A DNA stretch of 14,819 nucleotides from contig NZ_JAFREL010000093.1 of assembly GCF_017377655.1 (NCBI RefSeq), forward strand, positions 1 through 14,819. The letters are read 5' to 3'. The DNA is from Candidatus Enterococcus ferrettii. GTDB taxonomy: Bacteria > Bacillota > Bacilli > Lactobacillales > Enterococcaceae. Made by a program: the position numbers and the translations under genes. The notes beneath the pieces are model-generated. The model was not told where the DNA came from, made no database searches, and saw nothing but the letters and a program-made list of their open reading frames with translations. Each line of letters begins with the position of its first letter. Position 1 is the first letter of the stretch. Positions 114-8,457 of the stretch are shown piece after piece.

Positions 114-1205
114 TTAGTTATTCATTGTACGGTTCCATTGGTCGATCCACTTAGGCAGGTTTTTGTTGATCATTTTGAAATCAACTGCTTCTGCGCGATC
201 GGCAATTGCACCGTAAGTTTTGTTTTCTGCTTCTGCTTCAGTCAACTCAACATCTTTGTTAGTTGGACCTTCGTTTAATGATAAAGCTTTAGCCTTTTGT
301 GATTCCTCGCTGATACGGTGGTTCACGAATGCTAGTGCCAGGTCTTTATTTTCTGTTTCTTTTGGAATATTTACTGTGTTGTAATTTGCGTATGTGCCTG
401 ATTCAGGAACAACGTATTCAACATTTTCAGAAGCACCCTTAATGATGTCTACTGCAAAATCTGCCACTACAGCTACTTCAATCTCACCAGACTGGAACAT
501 GTTTGCCAGGTCGGAAGATTTAGAGTAAGTTTTTACTACGTTTGGTTTCAATTCTTCCATTGCTTTGAAGGCTGCTTCCCCATTGTCAGAAGCAATATCT
601 TTACCTGCATGGTCGCTTGCTACGTAGAGCATTAATGGTCCTGCTGTTACAGTGATATCTGGAACTGAAATTTTCCCTTTTAATTCGTCGCTCCAAAGAT
701 CATCCCAGCTAGTAATTTCTTTGCCAACTTTTTCTTTGTCATACACGATACCGATACTGTTTACGGCGATTGGCACACCCGCACCGCTTTCGTACACTTC
801 TTTCGCACCATCGGTTAAGTTTGCTAAGTTAGGTACGTCTTTTTCAGTAATATCCAAGAACATGTCATCTTGGTTTCCTTCTGTTGAATTGTTTTGAGCC
901 AATTCAATGACATCTACACCTGATTTCGGATTGTTTTTCAGTTTAGTGAACCGGTCAGCACTATTGCCGACTTCTAACGTAACCTTCGCATCATTTTCCT
1001 TTGAGAATGGATCCATGATGTCTTTTTTCACGATGTCTTCACTCAAACCAAAAGTAGAAACTACCAATGATTTACTGCCGGTACTTGAGCTGTTGTCATC
1101 TGAGCTTCCTGTACTGCCGCCACCATTGTTTGCTGCGCTGTTGCCACACGCTGCCAAGGCAATACTTGTTACTGCCACCATACCTACTAAAAATTTCTTT
1201 TTCAT
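114..1205 (-). CDS. ABC importer solute-binding lipoprotein, spermidine/putrescine-like group
   Basis: This 363-residue protein captures the substrate outside the cell for the importer encoded just upstream. It begins with a lipoprotein signal: a basic start (MKKK), a hydrophobic core, and a lipobox LAAC with the lipidated cysteine at residue 20. A Gly/Ser/Asn-rich linker of about 25 residues follows, then a periplasmic-binding-protein fold. The segments FGLSEDIVKKDIMDPF, VPIAVNSIGIVYDKEKV and TSWDDLW are typical of the group that binds polyamines, ferric iron, thiamine or 2-aminoethylphosphonate. The start is an ATG preceded by AAAAGGAG. The gene follows the ATPase gene by 14 bases and so is the last gene of the operon. 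The substrate cannot be read from the sequence. Polyamine is a guess from the family; iron and phosphonate remain possible. Confidence 0.85.
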   Translation of the reverse strand: MKKKFLVGMVAVTSIALAACGNSAANNGGGSTGSSDDNSSSTGSKSLVVSTFGLSEDIVKKDIMDPFSKENDAKVTLEVGNSADRFTKLKNNPKSGVDVIELAQNNSTEGNQDDMFLDITEKDVPNLANLTDGAKEVYESGAGVPIAVNSIGIVYDKEKVGKEITSWDDLWSDELKGKISVPDITVTAGPLMLYVASDHAGKDIASDNGEAAFKAMEELKPNVVKTYSKSSDLANMFQSGEIEVAVVADFAVDIIKGASENVEYVVPESGTYANYNTVNIPKETENKDLALAFVNHRISEESQKAKALSLNEGPTNKDVELTEAEAENKTYGAIADRAEAVDFKMINKNLPKWIDQWNRTMNN

Positions 1206-1219
1206 CCTTTTAGCTCCTT

Positions 1220-2251
1220 TTATTTTTCTAAAATGACTAATTTTTCAGCAGGGAAGCTCAGCGTAATGCTGTCCCCTGTTTGAAACACTTGTTGGTCACT
1301 GCCGTTAACCAGCAGCTTGCCTAATGATGATTCTACTTCGTATTGATGGCTCTTGCCTAAGAAGGTCCGAACGCTGATTTTGCCTTTAATCGGTCCATCA
1401 GGCTTAATTTCGATGTCTTCAGGACGAATTGTCGCTACCGCTTTTTCGTTGGTTCCTTGAGACAGCTTACTAGAAACACTTGTTCCATCAGCGGTTGTAT
1501 ACGTTCCATCGGCATTCTTGGTTACTTCAAAAAAGTTTTCAAATCCGATAAAATGAGCCACAAATTGCGTCTTAGGTAAACGATAAATGTTTTCTGGCGT
1601 ATCGTATTGTTCAATTACGCCCCCATTCATAATTGCAACCTTGTCAGAAATAGAGAAGCACTCTTCCTGATCGTGAGTTACGAAGACTGTTGTAATACCT
1701 AATTGGCGCTGGATTCGTTTGATTTCGATTCGCATCGCTACCCGCAATTTTGCATCTAAATTACTTAGTGGTTCATCTAATAGTAAAAGCTTTGGTTCAA
1801 TAATCAACGCCCGGGCCAAAGCTACTCGCTGACGTTGACCACCGGAAAGCTGTTTAGGATAGCGATCTCCTAAATCTTCCAATCCACAAATTTTCAACAT
1901 ATCAGCAACTTTTTGATCCATAATCTCTTTTTTCTCTTTACGCAATTTCAATCCAAAGGCTACATTTTCCGCAATGGTTAGATGTGGGAACAGTGCATAG
2001 CTTTGAAATACCATACCAAAATTTCGTTTGTGAACGGGAACCTTGGTTAAATTATCATTATCCAAAATAAAATCGCCATCGTTGGGTTGAATCAAACCGG
2101 CAATTACTCGTAAAGTCGTTGTTTTCCCACAACCACTTGGTCCCAGCAAAGAAACTAGTTCACCCTTTTCCATGGAAATATTTAAATCTTTTAGAATATC
2201 TTGCTTGCCGTCATAGCTGACACGAATGTCGCTTAATTCTACAAATGACAC
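1220..2251 (-). CDS. ABC importer ATPase, PotA/FbpC-like, with TOBE-type C-terminus
   Basis: This 343-residue cytoplasmic ATPase powers the importer. All catalytic motifs are intact: Walker A GPSGCGKTT at 37-45 (Lys43), Q-loop Gln83, signature LSGGQ at 135-139, Walker B LLLLDE ending at Asp159-Glu160, and switch His193. Residues from about 235 onward form the regulatory TOBE-like extension found in the polyamine/iron/sugar importer ATPases, including the hallmark ATIRPEDIEI. The start is GTG, preceded by AAGGAG with a 10-base gap. The gene is separated from the upstream permease gene by 298 bases holding two hairpin repeats, which is unusual within an importer operon and may set its expression separately. 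Family assignment is firm; the transported substrate is not. Confidence 0.9.
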   Translation of the reverse strand: MSFVELSDIRVSYDGKQDILKDLNISMEKGELVSLLGPSGCGKTTTLRVIAGLIQPNDGDFILDNDNLTKVPVHKRNFGMVFQSYALFPHLTIAENVAFGLKLRKEKKEIMDQKVADMLKICGLEDLGDRYPKQLSGGQRQRVALARALIIEPKLLLLDEPLSNLDAKLRVAMRIEIKRIQRQLGITTVFVTHDQEECFSISDKVAIMNGGVIEQYDTPENIYRLPKTQFVAHFIGFENFFEVTKNADGTYTTADGTSVSSKLSQGTNEKAVATIRPEDIEIKPDGPIKGKISVRTFLGKSHQYEVESSLGKLLVNGSDQQVFQTGDSITLSFPAEKLVILEK

Positions 2252-2314
2252 GATAGTTTCGCTCCTTGTTTATTCTTAATTTGTTAACAGTAACAGCGAT
2301 GTAGTGAGTACAAA

Positions 2315-2396
2315 TACCGTTCTGCTAAGTAGTTTTTCTTAGCAAGGCTTAGCTTATATGCTTCTAGCCTTTGATATACTGTGAAAAGCAGAACTG
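2315..2396 (-). repeat. Hairpin repeat, copy A
   Basis: This copy shares two blocks with copy B. The first, at 2315-2332 (TACCGTTCTGCTAAGTAG on the plus strand), matches 17 of 18 positions. The second, at 2378-2396, is identical over 19 bases (CAGTTCTGCTTTTCACAGT on the minus strand). The middle diverges. GTTCTGCT (2319-2326) can pair with AGCAGAAC (2387-2394) to close the whole element. Alternatively GCTAAG (2324-2329) can pair locally with CTTAGC (2338-2343). These two folds share bases and cannot form together. Confidence 0.75.
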
Positions 2397-2460
2397 ACAG
2401 CTAACTCACGATTAAGGAAATAATTTTTCTTTGGAAAAATTACTTTGATTTTCGTACGCT

Positions 2461-2546
2461 TACCATTCTGCTAAGTAGATTTATCCTAGCAAATCTCCAA
2501 AACAAAATTCTCCATGTAACTTGAACAACTGTGAAAAGCAGAACTG
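2461..2546 (-). repeat. Hairpin repeat, copy B
   Basis: This is the second copy of the element, offset by 146 to 150 bases from copy A. Conserved blocks are 2461-2478 and 2528-2546, with a divergent middle. TTCTGCT (2466-2472) can pair with AGCAGAA (2537-2543). It begins 4 bases after the stop codon of the second permease. Weak similarity to copy A continues across that stop codon, which hints that one copy arose by a local duplication including the end of the permease gene. I do not recognise the element. Confidence 0.75.
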
Positions 2547-2549
2547 GCA

Positions 2550-3329
2550 CTAAACTATTGATGCCAATCCTAGCGTCCGTTCAATTAGGAACATCAAACC
2601 AATTGTCAGAAGCATCAGCATGACTGAAATCGCAGAAACAGTTGGGTCATAGTTGTATTCCATGTAGCTTAGTAATGAGGTTGGCAGCATCGTAACTCCT
2701 GGGCCAGATAAAAACATCGACACCGGCACATTATTAAAGGAATTAACAAACGCCAACATAAAAGAAGCAAAAATACCGGACGAAACATTCGGCAGCACAA
2801 TTTGAACAAATGCTCGAAATCTCGTACAGCCCAATGTCCAGGCAACTTCCTCCATTGAATAATCCAACTGATCCATGCTAGAACCGACTACCCGAATAAT
2901 GTACGGCAAGCTAATTAGAAAGTGTCCCATCAGCAGGCCTTGGAAGACTGGCAAACCTAATGAAACAACAATAAACTGGAACAAAGTATAACCAACAACG
3001 ATTCCAGGAATCACAGTGGGTGATAAGAAGAAGCTTTTAATTAAGCTGCGGCCTTTCATCGGGAAGCGTGCTAAAGCATAAGAAGCTGGCACACCGACTA
3101 ACAAAGCCAAAAAAGTTGCCAGAACACCGATCAATAAGCTTAGTCTAAAACTACTCATGATTGATTCATTGGATAAGGCATTGGCATACCAATCTAGTGT
3201 GAAGCCCTTAATTGGAAACTGGATGGCCGCTGCTGTACCAAAGGAGGTAATCCCAATTAAGACTAACGGTAAAAATAGAAATGCGAATACTAAGATCGCA
3301 ATAACGGTCATTCCTTTTTGTCTACGCAT
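2550..3329 (-). CDS. ABC importer permease 2, PotC/FbpB-like
   Basis: This is the second membrane subunit of the importer, 259 residues from the chosen start, with about six hydrophobic segments. The cytoplasmic loop that contacts the ATPase is visible near residues 160-180, with EEVAWTLGCTRFRAF followed by VLPNVSSGIFASF, the EAA-type motif of binding-protein-dependent permeases. I chose the ATG at 3329 because AGGAGAGAG lies 7 bases before it. An upstream in-frame ATG at 3362 has no good ribosome binding site and would overlap the preceding gene by 41 bases. With the chosen start the gene overlaps the stop of permease 1 by 8 bases (ATGCGTAG), which suggests translational coupling. It forms a heterodimer with permease 1. 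Confidence 0.88.
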   Translation of the reverse strand: MRRQKGMTVIAILVFAFLFLPLVLIGITSFGTAAAIQFPIKGFTLDWYANALSNESIMSSFRLSLLIGVLATFLALLVGVPASYALARFPMKGRSLIKSFFLSPTVIPGIVVGYTLFQFIVVSLGLPVFQGLLMGHFLISLPYIIRVVGSSMDQLDYSMEEVAWTLGCTRFRAFVQIVLPNVSSGIFASFMLAFVNSFNNVPVSMFLSGPGVTMLPTSLLSYMEYNYDPTVSAISVMLMLLTIGLMFLIERTLGLASIV

Positions 3330-4155
3330 TATGAAACTCTCTCCTATCCACTTGTTTAGCAATGAAATTCAAGACCTTCATAACCACTAAGGTCGTAACA
3401 ATCATAATCAAAGCAATTACAGCTACGCCATTCCAATCTCCTAAGGTGGCTGCTCGCTGATACAAGAAGGTCGACATCAGCATTTTCTGATTCCCACCTA
3501 ATAGCTGCGGCGTAGTGTAGGCTGTTAATGTGCCAGTAAATACAAGAATACTTCCCACAATTGCTCCCGGAATAGATAACGGCAGCACAATTTTCATAAA
3601 GGCCGTAAATGGTGAAGCTCCCAGTGTTTCAGCAGCCTCAAGCATCTCACCTTCAATATTCTCCATGACCCCAACTAACGTCATTACCATGGTTGGCAAA
3701 AATAAATACACCGAGCCGATAATAATGGCAAACTCTGTGTATAGCAGATTCAATGGTTGTTCAATTAATCCACTCTTCAATAATAGGCTGTTCAAGACAC
3801 CATTTTTTCCTAAGATATTGATCCAGGCAAAACTTCGAATAACTGAGTTAGTCAATAGAGGAAACAGGGTCATCGCCATTAAAATTCCACGCCACTTTTT
3901 GTTCAACCCAGCAATAAAATACGCGGTAGGAATCCCAAAAACTAATGAAGCGACGGTTACAATACTTGACACACGGATGGTACGCCAGAAAATCCCCCGA
4001 TTGTACTCATCTTGGAAAAAAGATACATAATTGCCTAATCCACCGTTTTCTGGTAGAAAGCTTGGAAAAATACTTGCCACTAAAGGAAGAATCAAAAAGA
4101 ACACCAGTAGGACAAATCCCGGTAAAAGGATGAAATAAGGAACATTTTTCTTCAT
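3322..4155 (-). CDS. ABC importer permease 1, PotB-like
   Basis: This is the first gene of the importer operon, encoding a 277-residue inner-membrane subunit with about six hydrophobic segments. The EAA loop is present near residues 172-190, with EAAETLGASPFTAF then IVLPLSIPGAIVG, which places it in the polyamine/iron-type permease family. The start is the ATG at 4155 because CGAGGAG lies 7 bases upstream. The in-frame ATG at 4182 lacks a ribosome binding site and sits close to the predicted transcription start. A good promoter lies just upstream. The order permease, permease, ATPase, binding protein differs from the common ATPase-first potABCD order of Firmicutes, one reason not to name the substrate. 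Confidence 0.88.
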   Translation of the reverse strand: MKKNVPYFILLPGFVLLVFFLILPLVASIFPSFLPENGGLGNYVSFFQDEYNRGIFWRTIRVSSIVTVASLVFGIPTAYFIAGLNKKWRGILMAMTLFPLLTNSVIRSFAWINILGKNGVLNSLLLKSGLIEQPLNLLYTEFAIIIGSVYLFLPTMVMTLVGVMENIEGEMLEAAETLGASPFTAFMKIVLPLSIPGAIVGSILVFTGTLTAYTTPQLLGGNQKMLMSTFLYQRAATLGDWNGVAVIALIMIVTTLVVMKVLNFIAKQVDRREFHNA

Positions 4156-4188
4156 TTTAAACTCCTCGTTCGTTTTTAACATAGATGT

Positions 4189-4662: not shown

Positions 4663-5508
4663 TTACTCACCTTGTTGCGTTACAACTGTATCTGTTCCGT
4701 TAACTGTAACCCAACCATGTTTCTTTCTAGCCTGAGCTTCTTCATAGCGGATTAGTTCATCAGTCACCGATTCAGCAATTTTTTGGTTCGCTGCAGCCTC
4801 AGCTTCGGCTGCTTTAGTCATTTTATAAGCTTCACTATCAGCTTGAGTTTTAGCTGTTTCTGCATCAAGCTTGGCTTTTTCGTTTTCTTGACCAGCACGA
4901 ATAATAGCATCAATGGACTTTTGGGTTTCCGGATCGACGTCAGGAACACCTAGGGTTACATCTTCTACTTCAAAGCCCTTTCCTTCTACTGATTTTGCAA
5001 AATTCGTCAGTACCTCAGCTTCCACCTTAGAGGACTCGCCGGAAAGAATATCTAGTAAACTGTATTTTGCATAGACTTCTCGAGAAACCTTTTGGAGTTT
5101 TGATTTTAACCAGCCATTTTCGATATCCGTACTGGTAATATTTCCAAATTCCTTATACATTTTCGCAGCCTTAGTTGAATCGACCTTATAATCGTATTTA
5201 ATGTTGATGGAGGTTTTCTTGCCATCACTAGTTGACACCGAAACATTTTCAGCCTGAATCGTCTGTAGGCGAATCGGGTATTGAATGACCTTGTCGATAC
5301 CAACAAACTTCACCCCTTGTGTCAGGGCCTGATCTTTGATTCCGCCGTTCATTGAGTAGCGAACACCCACGTATCCGTTATCAATTCTCTCGAAGAATTT
5401 TAAAGCCGCAACAACGCCCACTACGACAACAACCAAAAAGATTATTATCCCCTTAAATCCTTTTGAATTTTTCATTTCAGTCATTTTTGGTTTTTTATCT
5501 TGTTTCAT
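4663..5508 (-). CDS. SPFH/prohibitin-family membrane protein
   Basis: This 281-residue protein has a short Lys-rich cytoplasmic start, one transmembrane segment at about 19-38, an SPFH (band 7) domain at about 41-200, and an Ala/Glu/Lys-rich coiled coil at about 205-262. The SPFH signature is seen in RIDNGYVGVRY, GVKFVGIDKVIQYPIR and the SVSTSDGKKTSINIKYDYKV region. Family members assemble into ring- or cage-like membrane scaffolds, some of which hold proteases or organise membrane microdomains. No protease or NfeD-type gene is next to it. Instead a microprotein gene follows by 2 bases. The start ATG is preceded by AAAGGGGA. A terminator-like hairpin sits 37 bases upstream of the start, which may make expression conditional. 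Confidence 0.85.
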   Translation of the reverse strand: MKQDKKPKMTEMKNSKGFKGIIIFLVVVVVGVVAALKFFERIDNGYVGVRYSMNGGIKDQALTQGVKFVGIDKVIQYPIRLQTIQAENVSVSTSDGKKTSINIKYDYKVDSTKAAKMYKEFGNITSTDIENGWLKSKLQKVSREVYAKYSLLDILSGESSKVEAEVLTNFAKSVEGKGFEVEDVTLGVPDVDPETQKSIDAIIRAGQENEKAKLDAETAKTQADSEAYKMTKAAEAEAAANQKIAESVTDELIRYEEAQARKKHGWVTVNGTDTVVTQQGE

Positions 5509-5683: not shown

Positions 5684-6433
5684 TTACTCTCCATCCAACC
5701 CATTCTTTTTATAGGCATAGATAAACAGTCCAAAGCTAACCACCAACCAAGCAATTAAAACGAGAATATCTTTACTGTTCCATTGATAACCATCACCAGA
5801 AAATGCCTGATCAGCAAATTGACTGATTACGCCTGAATAAACGTAGCTGACTACCTTTGCCAAAGTAGGATTAAAAATACGAAACATCGGTGCTAAGGTA
5901 AGTGATAGTAAAATTGGCATGCCAATCAGACTTGATTGCATTTGGCCTTTAGCATAAATACCGATAACATAACCGATCAAAATACTAATTAGACTGCCCA
6001 CCGTAGTTAGTATCAGATAGGCACCTAACTGGATTTCTCCAAACGAAGCACCACTGACAGGAATTAATAGCAGATTAACGATTATCAGGATCATTAATGA
6101 AGGCAGCATGCTGCCGATAAAAAATTCTGCTCCATTTACTGATGAGGTCATTAATACGCGCAGAGTATTTTTCTCTTTTTCTTCGGCTAGTGGAAGACTG
6201 CTCATCATAATACCGCCCATAATAATATTGAACATAAGTCCAAAGCCTAACAAAAATGAATCTTTGGAAAAATGCATTCCCCCTTCTGTTGCATCCACCT
6301 CCGGCATCATTGCCTTCATCACTATAACAAAACCGATCGCCATAAAAGGAGCAACCATAATACTCATATTGCGTAAGATCGACTGCAGCTTCATCACAAA
6401 AATAGCATCGATTTTTCTAATAGATAATTTCAC
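5684..6433 (-). CDS. ABC-2 type exporter permease
   Basis: This 249-residue membrane protein has about six hydrophobic segments and the conserved cytoplasmic stretch LAEEKEKNTLRVLMTS, typical of ABC-2 permeases of the CcmA-partnered drug, peptide and sodium exporters. The large extracytoplasmic loop after the first segment (about residues 40-60) is also typical. I chose the GTG start at 6433 rather than an earlier ATG at 6523. GGGAGG lies 6 bases before the GTG, and GTGA overlaps the stop codon of the ATPase gene, a classic translational coupling. The earlier ATG lies deep within the ATPase gene. It should pair with the adjacent ATPase as a homodimeric exporter. The substrate is unknown. Confidence 0.85.
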   Translation of the reverse strand: MKLSIRKIDAIFVMKLQSILRNMSIMVAPFMAIGFVIVMKAMMPEVDATEGGMHFSKDSFLLGFGLMFNIIMGGIMMSSLPLAEEKEKNTLRVLMTSSVNGAEFFIGSMLPSLMILIIVNLLLIPVSGASFGEIQLGAYLILTTVGSLISILIGYVIGIYAKGQMQSSLIGMPILLSLTLAPMFRIFNPTLAKVVSYVYSGVISQFADQAFSGDGYQWNSKDILVLIAWLVVSFGLFIYAYKKNGLDGE

Positions 6434-7284
6434 ACTAATTCCCTCCCAGTTACTTCTAAAAAGACCTTTTCTAATGTTGGTTCGCAGGAATGAATGGCTG
6501 CCAGGCTGTCTTCTGCCAGCCATTGATCAATTTTAGCTCTCGTTTCATTCGAATGAGCCAAGGTTAGCTCCTTCCCATTCTTCAATGTTATCTGATAGAA
6601 CTTGTCACGATTGAATTTTAGACACAGCTCTTTTGGACTGCCACTCTCCACAATGAGTCCGTCATTCAGTAAAGCGACTTGATCACATAATTTAGCGGCT
6701 TCTTCCATATTATGAGTGGTTAAAAAGATGGCTGTTCCTTTTTGTTTTAATTCCAACAGTAATTGATAGACTGCTTCTGAGGTACTGGGATCAAGTCCGC
6801 TGGTTGGTTCATCCAAGAATAGAACCTTGGGCTCGTGTAAAATGGATCGGGCCAAAACTAAACGCTGCTTCATCCCTTTTGACAGCTTACCAGCCAGCTT
6901 TTTCTTGTGCTCCAACAAGCCGACCTTTTGCAGCAGCAGCTCAACGCGTTTTTTATCAATTCCCAATATCCGAGCGAAAAAGCTCAGATTTTGATAAACG
7001 CTCATCTTCTCATATAACCCGCTGTTGTCAGTAATGATGCCGATTTGCTGATAGATCGTCTCATTGATTTGTTCAACCGGTTTCCCTAAGACTGAGGCTT
7101 TGCCGGCACTTTGAGTAAGCTGTCCAGTCAATATTTTGATGGTTGTGGTTTTCCCTGCTCCTGATGGGCCTAAGAATCCAAAAATTTCACCTGGTTGGAC
7201 AGAAAAGCTTAAGTCTTTTAAAGCTGTTTCCTTTCTAAATTGTTTTGCTAAATGATCCACTTGAATCACGGATGAATTTTCCAT
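6430..7284 (-). CDS. ABC-2 exporter ATPase, CcmA family
   Basis: This 284-residue ATPase has intact motifs: Walker A GPSGAGKTT at 39-47 (Lys45), signature LSKGM at 134-138, Walker B VLFLDE ending Asp158-Glu159, D-loop SGLD, and switch His191. The C-terminus carries EPTLEKVFLEVTGREL, the hallmark of ATPases that pair with ABC-2 permeases. The start ATG has AAGGAG 10 bases upstream. It lies 177 bases downstream of the LytTR-type regulator gene, and that gap holds phased direct repeats. The permease gene overlaps its stop codon. Homologues export bacteriocins, antimicrobial peptides or toxic ions, and a self-protection or stress role is likely but unproven. Confidence 0.9.
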   Translation of the reverse strand: MENSSVIQVDHLAKQFRKETALKDLSFSVQPGEIFGFLGPSGAGKTTTIKILTGQLTQSAGKASVLGKPVEQINETIYQQIGIITDNSGLYEKMSVYQNLSFFARILGIDKKRVELLLQKVGLLEHKKKLAGKLSKGMKQRLVLARSILHEPKVLFLDEPTSGLDPSTSEAVYQLLLELKQKGTAIFLTTHNMEEAAKLCDQVALLNDGLIVESGSPKELCLKFNRDKFYQITLKNGKELTLAHSNETRAKIDQWLAEDSLAAIHSCEPTLEKVFLEVTGRELV

Positions 7285-7376
7285 GCTGATTCTGCTCCTT
7301 CACTAGTATCAATTAAGCAGTCGCTGTTTTCGACTTCTCTAACACCTATCTTAGCGAAGGAAATGGAAAAAGACGT

Positions 7377-7408
7377 AAAAAACGGGCGAATTGTACGCCA
7401 TTTCGCCC
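7377..7408 (-). terminator. Rho-independent terminator between regulator and exporter genes
   Basis: GGGCGAA (7384-7390) pairs with TTCGCCC (7402-7408) around an 11-base loop. On the minus strand a G and then six T residues (7382-7377) follow. The hairpin loop and one arm contain one of the GTAC direct repeats, so protein binding and RNA folding share the same bases. Confidence 0.7.
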
Positions 7409-7460
7409 CAAATGTACGAAATACAGGCTGAAAATAAGCAATTCCAACCTGAATTGTACC
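7389..7460 (-). promoter_or_regulatory. Phased GTAC direct repeats, likely LytTR operator
   Basis: On the minus strand three similar 9-mers occur: GGTACAATT (7460-7452), CGTACATTT (7418-7410) and CGTACAATT (7397-7389). Their offsets are 42 and 21 bases, that is four and two helical turns. LytTR-domain regulators such as AgrA, ComE and PlnC are known to bind direct repeats at about 21-base spacing. The array begins 1 base after the stop codon of the LytTR regulator and lies ahead of the exporter ATPase. A weak -10 (TAAGAT, 7353-7348) lies 35 bases downstream of the last repeat without a good -35, as expected for an activated promoter. Confidence 0.6.
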
Positions 7461-7461
7461 T

Positions 7462-8457
7462 TTATCCTTCAATTAATTGCTTCATTTCCTCCAAACGAGT
7501 TCGAGATAACGGAAGCTTGTTGGCAGAGTTTCCTTTCAGAATAAGTGTATAACTATTTTTAGAATAGCTGATTAGTTCAGAAATTCTTTGCAGATTTACC
7601 AGATACGAACGGTGACAACGGAAAAAACCAAAGTGTGCCAGCTTCTCTTCTAACTCAGTCATTGTTAAGACTGAAGGAAAATATTCTTCCCCAATGCGAA
7701 TATTGCTGACACTATTAATACTTTCAATATAGTCAATTTCATTGGGACTGAAAAAGATGGTTTTGTCAGCTAATTTGCACGCAACTTTAAAAACATTCCT
7801 TGGCTGTAAATGATGGCTTTCATTCTCTGATGTGGAGGGTGAATCTTCCGAAACCAAATCAGTTTTTTCTAGTCCAATAGTTCGTTGATAGCGGTAAATA
7901 TCTTTACTTAGCAATAACAACTCTTCAATATAGTAAGCAGTGAAAAGAGTCGCTATTTCTTGTTGGCGAATATATTCTAAGGCTCTTAAATACAGTTCGA
8001 TTCCCTCATCAGTCAAATTCGTTAAGGGACTCTCAATGAGCAGCACCTGAGGCTGAAATAAAAATAGTCGGAATAAGCTGACTCGCTTTTTTTGATCTGG
8101 ATTCAGCTGTTTCACCTTCGTTTGCCAAACATCTAGCAACGAGAAGGCCTCTATTTGCGACTCCAAATTTACAGGATAATTGGCTATCTTTTTGAAAAAC
8201 TTTAAATAGCCGCTGACAGTTAGATTCTCATACAACCCATCATCCTTCATTTCTGAAAGCAGTCCTGTTGTCTGACATTCAACAGTACCACTGGAGGGTG
8301 CCACTTTCCCTGTGATTAATTTAAACAATAGTTGACTTTCTTCATGGGTCATTTTGATGCCGACTTGATCATTCTTGTTGAGGGTCAAACTAATATTTTT
8401 CAGAATGAACTGATTGTTTTTTTGTTTCATTACATTTTCGAGGTTAATTAAGTTCAA
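7462..8457 (-). CDS. Regulator fusing a degenerate ABC domain to a LytTR DNA-binding domain
   Basis: This 331-residue protein has an ABC-ATPase-like N-terminal domain (about 1-195), a polar linker (about 196-220) and a LytTR DNA-binding domain (about 222-331). The LytTR hallmark is FFRCHRSYLVNL at 278-289. The ABC part keeps the fold pattern (LFKLITG, TVSGYLKFF, VLLIES) but lacks catalytic residues. The Walker A position reads GIKMTHEES with no Lys-Thr, the signature reads LNPDQ, Walker B has Glu-Ser instead of Asp-Glu, and switch His is Tyr175. It probably cannot hydrolyse ATP. It likely senses or docks to the adjacent exporter, which is an inference. The start is TTG with GGAAGTGGAG upstream. 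ATG at codon 10 is the alternative. Confidence 0.85.
   Translation of the reverse strand: MNLINLENVMKQKNNQFILKNISLTLNKNDQVGIKMTHEESQLLFKLITGKVAPSSGTVECQTTGLLSEMKDDGLYENLTVSGYLKFFKKIANYPVNLESQIEAFSLLDVWQTKVKQLNPDQKKRVSLFRLFLFQPQVLLIESPLTNLTDEGIELYLRALEYIRQQEIATLFTAYYIEELLLLSKDIYRYQRTIGLEKTDLVSEDSPSTSENESHHLQPRNVFKVACKLADKTIFFSPNEIDYIESINSVSNIRIGEEYFPSVLTMTELEEKLAHFGFFRCHRSYLVNLQRISELISYSKNSYTLILKGNSANKLPLSRTRLEEMKQLIEG

Follow-up and report, generated by a model that had tools for sequence, protein, structure and literature searches.

The locus described here raises the question of why a transcription regulator should carry, in front of its DNA-binding domain, an ABC ATPase-like domain that has lost its functional motifs, and what such a domain might sense when the genes that follow encode an ABC-2 exporter. 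The window is the whole stretch of 14,819 nucleotides from Candidatus Enterococcus ferrettii that was analysed. A preliminary description of it had suggested that the dead domain either docks on the exporter permease or dimerises with the active exporter ATPase.

The regulator and its ATPase-like domain

The gene and its parts are as follows.

7462..8457, minus strand: regulator gene (pseudo-ABC–LytTR), 331 aa, TTG start
7852..8457, minus strand: pseudo-ABC ATPase domain, residues 1–202
8326..8361, minus strand: lost Walker A region, residues 33–44 (GIKMTHEES...)
8194..8241, minus strand: Q-loop/helical-face stretch that is kept, residues 73–88 (DGLYENLTVSGYLKFF), putative permease-docking face
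8083..8109, minus strand: degenerate signature, residues 117–125 (QLNPDQKKR)
8026..8046, minus strand: degenerate Walker B, residues 138–144 (VLLIESP)
7921..7941, minus strand: switch region without His, residues 173–179 (TAYYIEE)
7768..7851, minus strand: linker, residues 203–230 (202–221 are below pLDDT 50)
7471..7767, minus strand: LytTR DNA-binding domain, residues 231–329

The start position is common to the relatives, and in Enterococcus pallens it is likewise a TTG. Residues 1–202 are predicted to adopt the nucleotide-binding domain (NBD) fold of the ABC ATPase superfamily, and the LytTR domain scores 82.8 bits in Pfam against a curated cut-off of 22.6. Pfam finds no receiver domain in the regulator, and the NCBIfam matches begin at residue 203 or beyond. 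The preliminary description had placed a LytTR domain behind an ABC-like half with no receiver domain, and had proposed structure prediction of the regulator alone as a check; the domain matches, and a predicted model in which residues 1–202 form an ABC ATPase, bear this architecture out.

The window protein has no Walker A motif, no signature, no Walker B Asp-Glu pair and no switch His. With all four functional ABC ATPase motifs lost, it is by sequence the pseudo-ATPase that had been described. A protein search with the regulator (E ≤ 0.001) returned 1063 matches, of which the best 120 were examined. The Walker A pattern is found in none of the 88 regulators at located loci, as against 87 of the 88 adjacent ATPases, and in none of the 120 proteins among the matches listed (of 1063). 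Because Walker A is missing across the family in this way, the sequences indicate that the nucleotide-binding loop was lost long ago and that the loss has been maintained; the decay of one single gene is ruled out by the family-wide loss. The signature Gly is retained at 3 of the 88 located loci and in 2 of 117 aligned proteins among the matches listed. The switch His is absent from all 88 regulators at located loci, yet present in 15 of the 117 aligned proteins among the matches listed, and an Asp-Glu-Pro pattern occurs in 3/88 regulators, on which grounds some members of the family are less dead than others. The second Walker B acid is kept in 74/88. The 15 proteins with a switch His (the close relatives P0007, P0018 and P0027, and 12 more) have all lost Walker A. 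One regulator match, at L101, contains two TAA stops and looks like a decaying copy.

Relatives of the regulator are found in E. pallens (90%), Enterococcus sp. 669A (75%), Paenibacillus (67–68%), Rossellomorea (66%), Abiotrophia (47%) and Alkalihalobacillus (31%). At the limits set, there were matches in 57 of 398 genomes sampled across the class, in 94 of 159 genomes of one family, and in 6 of 299 genomes across the phylum. In the Enterococcaceae 10 of 105 genomes matched at all, and three (the window genome and two others) have the ABC–LytTR fusion; the other seven have matches to the ABC half alone, at 22–34% identity, which look like plain ATPases and were set aside. Among the matches listed, many bear the NCBI name 'LytTR family transcriptional regulator DNA-binding domain-containing protein' and some 'ABC-2 type transport system ATP-binding protein', and therefore annotation pipelines recognise one half or the other.

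The exporter genes and the 21-nt array

The regulator gene is followed by two exporter genes.

6430..7284, minus strand: exporter ATPase, DrrA-like, motifs intact
5684..6433, minus strand: exporter permease, ABC-2 type, 249 aa from a GTG, overlapping the ATPase stop

The permease start was placed by comparison with the E. pallens orthologue, which has 249 aa, the open reading frame list giving 5684–6523 from an upstream ATG. The exporter ATPase adjoins the regulator in 46 of 47 loci (L001–L007 and L060–L099). BLAST finds an ABC-2 permease in 44 of these, and the other three have an open reading frame of 166–236 aa in its place. In a larger set, 106 loci reduced to 89 distinct regulators, with the ATPase at most 500 nt downstream in 88 of them and a regulator–ATPase gap of about 70–295 nt; these counts cover the loci returned among the matches, a subset of all matches. 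The claim that an ABC-2 exporter with an intact ATPase adjoins the regulator therefore holds well beyond the window, and the survey of gene neighbours that had been suggested along with it finds a linkage that is near universal. In Priestia, the plasmid annotations give the three genes as a LytTR regulator, an ABC ATP-binding protein and an ABC permease. Beyond E. pallens the outer flanks of the module vary. Two further candidates for membership were rejected. One, the Band_7 gene (4663–5508), is on the regulator's other side in E. pallens (L001). The other, an importer of the binding-protein-dependent type identified by Pfam at 114–4182, has an ATPase that stays in position in E. pallens but is not beside the module in L002–L007; there the importer query matches the exporter ATPase, and in L007 also one other ATPase and the regulator. 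A Pfam scan of 12 genes of the window recognised none for a kinase.

In Abiotrophia (L006:4239–4985) a second ABC-2 permease lies directly upstream of the regulator, as if to form a permease heterodimer. At L161, on the Priestia megaterium plasmid pBMV_2, two mersacidin-family lantibiotic genes lie 2.7 kb from the regulator start, with LanM beyond. This may hint that such exporters handle antimicrobial peptides.

The gap between regulator and ATPase (7285–7461 in the window, and the corresponding gaps of the relatives) contains 9-nt half-sites every 21 nt, together with promoter-like elements.

7451..7459, minus strand: array unit 1, GTACAATTC
7430..7438, minus strand: array unit 2 (CTTATTTTC), weak in the window, clear in Paenibacillus L003/L004
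7409..7417, minus strand: array unit 3, GTACATTTG
7388..7396, minus strand: array unit 4, GTACAATTC
7424..7451, minus strand: terminator-like hairpin inside the array, sharing bases with array units
7374..7379, minus strand: TTTACG element, -35-like, 8 nt below unit 4 (relatives compared by eye)
7348..7353, minus strand: -10-like TAAGAT (relatives compared by eye)

On the minus strand the units of the window start at 7459, 7438, 7417 and 7396. The array had not been mentioned in the preliminary description, and is noted here as an additional observation. There are four units in Paenibacillus L003/L004, where units such as ACCGTTCGG in L003 presumably fit the LytTR consensus, and in a more distant clade the units are CTCCATTCA-like. 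The resulting 9-bp direct repeats with a 12-bp spacer, as for LytTR operators, are present in the window and across the family, and make the array a candidate operator.

Over the 88 gaps there are 251 9-mer self-matches at a lag of 21 nt, compared to a mean of 17.8 in five mononucleotide shuffles, with more peaks at 42 and 63. The excess survives removal of redundancy. Clustering at 60% identity leaves 38 representatives with 104 matches at lag 21 (200 shuffles: mean 7.9, maximum 22), spread over 26 of the 38 loci, and clustering at 45% leaves 19 representatives with 59 (shuffles: mean 3.3, maximum 16), spread over 13 of the 19. Among lags of 9–70 the highest in the representatives are 21, 42, 20, 63 and 41; the 20-nt lag being enriched too, the spacing varies. 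By a three-unit score, period 21 is best or joint best in 50/88 gaps, and the units are unclear in some loci, for example L079, L087, L093 and L112. In the whole 5.4-Mb genome the two-unit pattern has a single exact match, at the regulator locus. Six more places match with 2 mismatches, compared to one for a reversed control, and a clear wider regulon in the window's genome was rejected on these numbers. One of the six, at L156, falls within the 3' end of a gene resembling, by eye, an MFS transporter.

Strong autoregulation from upstream is not supported as a rule, there being no lag-21 excess above the regulator gene in the non-redundant loci: in a stretch of equal length upstream of it, the lag-21 counts are 6 and 3 (38 and 19 representatives), within the noise (other lags ≤32). 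In the full set, period 21 is the commonest best period upstream by the three-unit score (20/88; mean 13.5 vs 12.1–13.2), and there may therefore be a weak signal above the regulator gene.

In close relatives a TTTACG or TTGACG lies, by eye, 8 nt below unit 4, with a -10-like TAARMT about 20 nt further on. The spacing between the -35-like and -10-like elements is long, and a consensus-based promoter scan made no call there. Hairpins with stems of 12–13 bp lie between units 1 and 2 in L004, L005, L100 and L101. As a family-wide feature the hairpin was rejected, since one of -10 kcal/mol or better is found in 13/88 gaps only (vs 1/88 shuffles); by the family scoring, the best hairpin in the window is another one, over units 3–4.

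Taken together, the sequences make it very probable that the regulator governs exporter expression by way of the array. By analogy with known LytTR promoters, it would act as an activator. If instead it repressed the exporter promoter, with relief by transport or by substrate, one could point to the terminator-like hairpin, which the array overlaps both in the window and in several close relatives, so that binding could hinder transcription; the array ends 8 nt above the -35-like element, however, which is near the layout of the LytTR-activated LRS promoters discussed below, and we regard repression as very improbable.

Two other readings concern the ATPase-like domain itself, and both draw on the evidence so far. 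Array and linkage require no contact between regulator and exporter, as would be the case if the domain were a mere scaffold for dimerisation or for a small ligand (such as the exported compound), the exporter being target and not sensor. Alternatively, the adjacency of the ATPase gene at 88 of the 89 distinct loci suits a regulator that pairs with the live exporter ATPase, NBD to NBD, as in exporters in which a single site is degenerate, and that senses how much ATPase there is, or the ATP state, instead of the permease. The pattern of conservation bears on both.

Conservation of the ATPase-like domain, and loci without an adjacent ATPase

Conservation was compared between the 88 regulators and their 88 neighbour ATPases. 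In the regulators, residues 73–88, a stretch picked once the conservation profile had been seen, rank first among 185 16-residue windows (residues 1–200, 88 loci), while the aligned Q-loop stretch of the neighbour ATPases ranks 77 of 200. For the Walker A window the order is reversed, with rank 120/189 in the regulators and rank 1/204 in the ATPases. Within the stretch, Y76 is kept in 83/88 regulators, and the R and L of LYERL in 71/88 each. Walker B (10/194), the switch (13/194) and the signature (23/193) are conserved windows of the regulators too, and in a closer set of 117 sequences, from among the matches listed, residues 73–88 rank 14 and Walker B ranks 2; these ranks, like the choice of the stretch after the event, weigh against a docking role. 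The exporter ATPase of the window (6430–7284) has Asp at residue 86, as have the 87 other live ATPases aligned (88/88); this is presumably the position where the Q-loop Gln is expected.

In ABC structures, the Q-loop/helical stretch lines the groove that receives the coupling helix of the permease. To judge from the alignments, the constraint on Walker A has gone from the regulators, and the permease-facing stretch has kept or gained constraint. That no part of the domain is better conserved than this stretch at the 88 loci speaks against a mere scaffold. The conserved Walker B and switch windows could be cited in favour of pairing with the live ATPase. However, in the ABC mechanism a subunit requires its own signature motif to complete the nucleotide site of its partner; the signature Gly is kept at so few loci that the partner site should not be completed. 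The dimer with the active ATPase, one of the two options first put forward, is thus disfavoured as a working pair because the regulator has lost its signature too.

Further evidence comes from L090, one of the 89 loci, in which regulator and permease are 18 nt apart with no ATPase. With its regulator as query, 14 of the 29 genomes of its family gave matches, at 22 loci (L132 is L090 again). A permease match is present in all 22. The ATPase comes next in 12, the permease followed by the ATPase in one, and the permease with no ATPase between in nine, all from one family and found with a query biased towards such loci. In wider flanks of about 11 kb, five of the nine (L090, L163, L164, L167 and L170) have no ATPase homologue. 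In the other four an ATPase lies 0.8–1.4 kb downstream, and in the two tested the next open reading frame is an ABC2_membrane_5 permease; having a permease of its own, the downstream ATPase would therefore belong to a separate transporter, although it could nonetheless serve the regulator-linked permease. An array above the regulator gene is clear in L136 (1 of 200 shuffles as high) and less sure in L135 (10/200), and none is clear upstream of the regulator in the other seven of the nine loci.

Since the permease is present in 22/22 loci and the ATPase is not, the permease is the more constant partner, and docking on the permease is therefore favoured over pairing with the ATPase. The nine loci count against such pairing, and the persistence of the permease where the ATPase is missing counts against a scaffold; we consider both readings unlikely, and about equally so. 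Docking of the pseudo-ATPase on the permease, the other option first put forward, gains indirect support from the conservation of residues 73–88 and from the loci without an ATPase between regulator and permease, and is rather probable.

A proposed circuit and its relation to known systems

A close parallel is with the LytTR Regulatory Systems (LRS). As described in PMC6193735, these systems (HdrRM, BrsRM) consist of a LytTR regulator without a receiver and a membrane protein partner encoded nearby, with 9-12-9 direct repeats immediately upstream of the promoter; ABC genes are linked to two of the five LRS of S. mutans, and one LRS half-site, ACCATTCAA in S. aureus, resembles the array unit of the more distant clade. 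The module described here shares with them the receiver-less LytTR regulator, the nearby membrane protein, and a 9-12-9 spacing equal to that of the window array. The differences lie in the pseudo-ABC domain of the regulator, in an ABC-2 permease as the putative inhibitor, and in the place of the array, which is mostly downstream of the regulator gene, any 21-nt signal upstream being weak at best. In LRS the regulator gene is followed by that of the membrane protein; here too a permease gene follows, usually after that of the ATPase and directly in nine of the 22 loci of one family. LRS are further marked by positive autoregulation through repeats upstream of the regulator gene, where the module has the weak signal of the full set and the arrays of L136 and, less surely, L135. 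By this analogy, the circuit may be compared to an LRS in which the exporter itself, through its permease, supplies the membrane inhibitor. Of the 13 LytTR domains in the window's genome, two belong to short frames of 158 and 169 aa, possible regulators of the LRS type.

On the basis of these observations, we propose that the regulator is an exporter-type ABC ATPase stripped of its nucleotide-site motifs, to which a LytTR domain has been attached. The LytTR domain would bind the 21-nt array and activate the exporter promoter, a step that is well supported by sequence. The pseudo-ATPase would retain the face for the coupling helix, and so could dock on the permease without ATP hydrolysis. When docked, the regulator would be held at the membrane and inactive, and when free it would activate transcription, release coming when the permease is engaged. 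It follows that idle or surplus permease would close the promoter, and occupied or scarce permease would open it. We give this whole account, of an exporter module with a built-in gauge that combines activation at the array, docking and sequestration, a little better than an even chance. It is a good deal more doubtful that the transport state itself is the signal. Equally tentative is the idea that the pseudo-ATPase replaces the motor subunit on the permease, with a grip that shifts as substrate binds or moves, and that the LytTR domain relays this to the promoter.

The fold of residues 1–202 and the permease-facing LYExL stretch resemble those of ABC-2 exporter ATPases (DrrA, PmtC, NosF), but the regulator lacks Walker A and an intact signature, has mostly lost the switch His, and is fused to LytTR. 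With LytTR response regulators (AgrA, ComE, PlnC) it shares the LytTR domain and not the receiver. In heterodimeric ABC pairs the degenerate subunit retains an intact signature, which the regulator does not (Gly in 3/88 and 2/117). In E. coli, MalK, a live ABC ATPase, holds a separate transcription activator, MalT; the likeness is that an ABC subunit is tied to an activator, while here a dead copy of the ATPase would be part of the activator. Pseudo-enzymes as regulators are well known among kinases.

The ABC–LytTR fusion itself is already visible in databases; the InterPro/PIRSF entry PIRSF036612 is reportedly for such fusions. LytTR domains were reportedly surveyed in 2002. A literature search of titles and the starts of abstracts, with most subscription journals outside its scope, recognised no paper on an ABC–LytTR fusion, and none in which a pseudo-ABC ATPase forms the sensing part of a one-component transcription factor. 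The passages available of PMC10620731 have no such fusion, and those of PMC11237479 have LytTR only alongside a Toastrack domain.

The array, the shift in constraint and the branch without an ATPase combine into a coherent, partly supported picture of an LRS-like circuit with a transporter-derived sensor. If the pseudo-ATPase does relay the state of the permease to the promoter, the permease itself would report exporter flux, no kinase, second messenger or ligand-binding regulator being required, and in the branch without an ATPase the permeases would have been retired to pure sensors. The module is compact and its matches are common in some groups; it would make direct signalling from transporter to promoter testable, and would provide a sensor for the cargo of these exporters.
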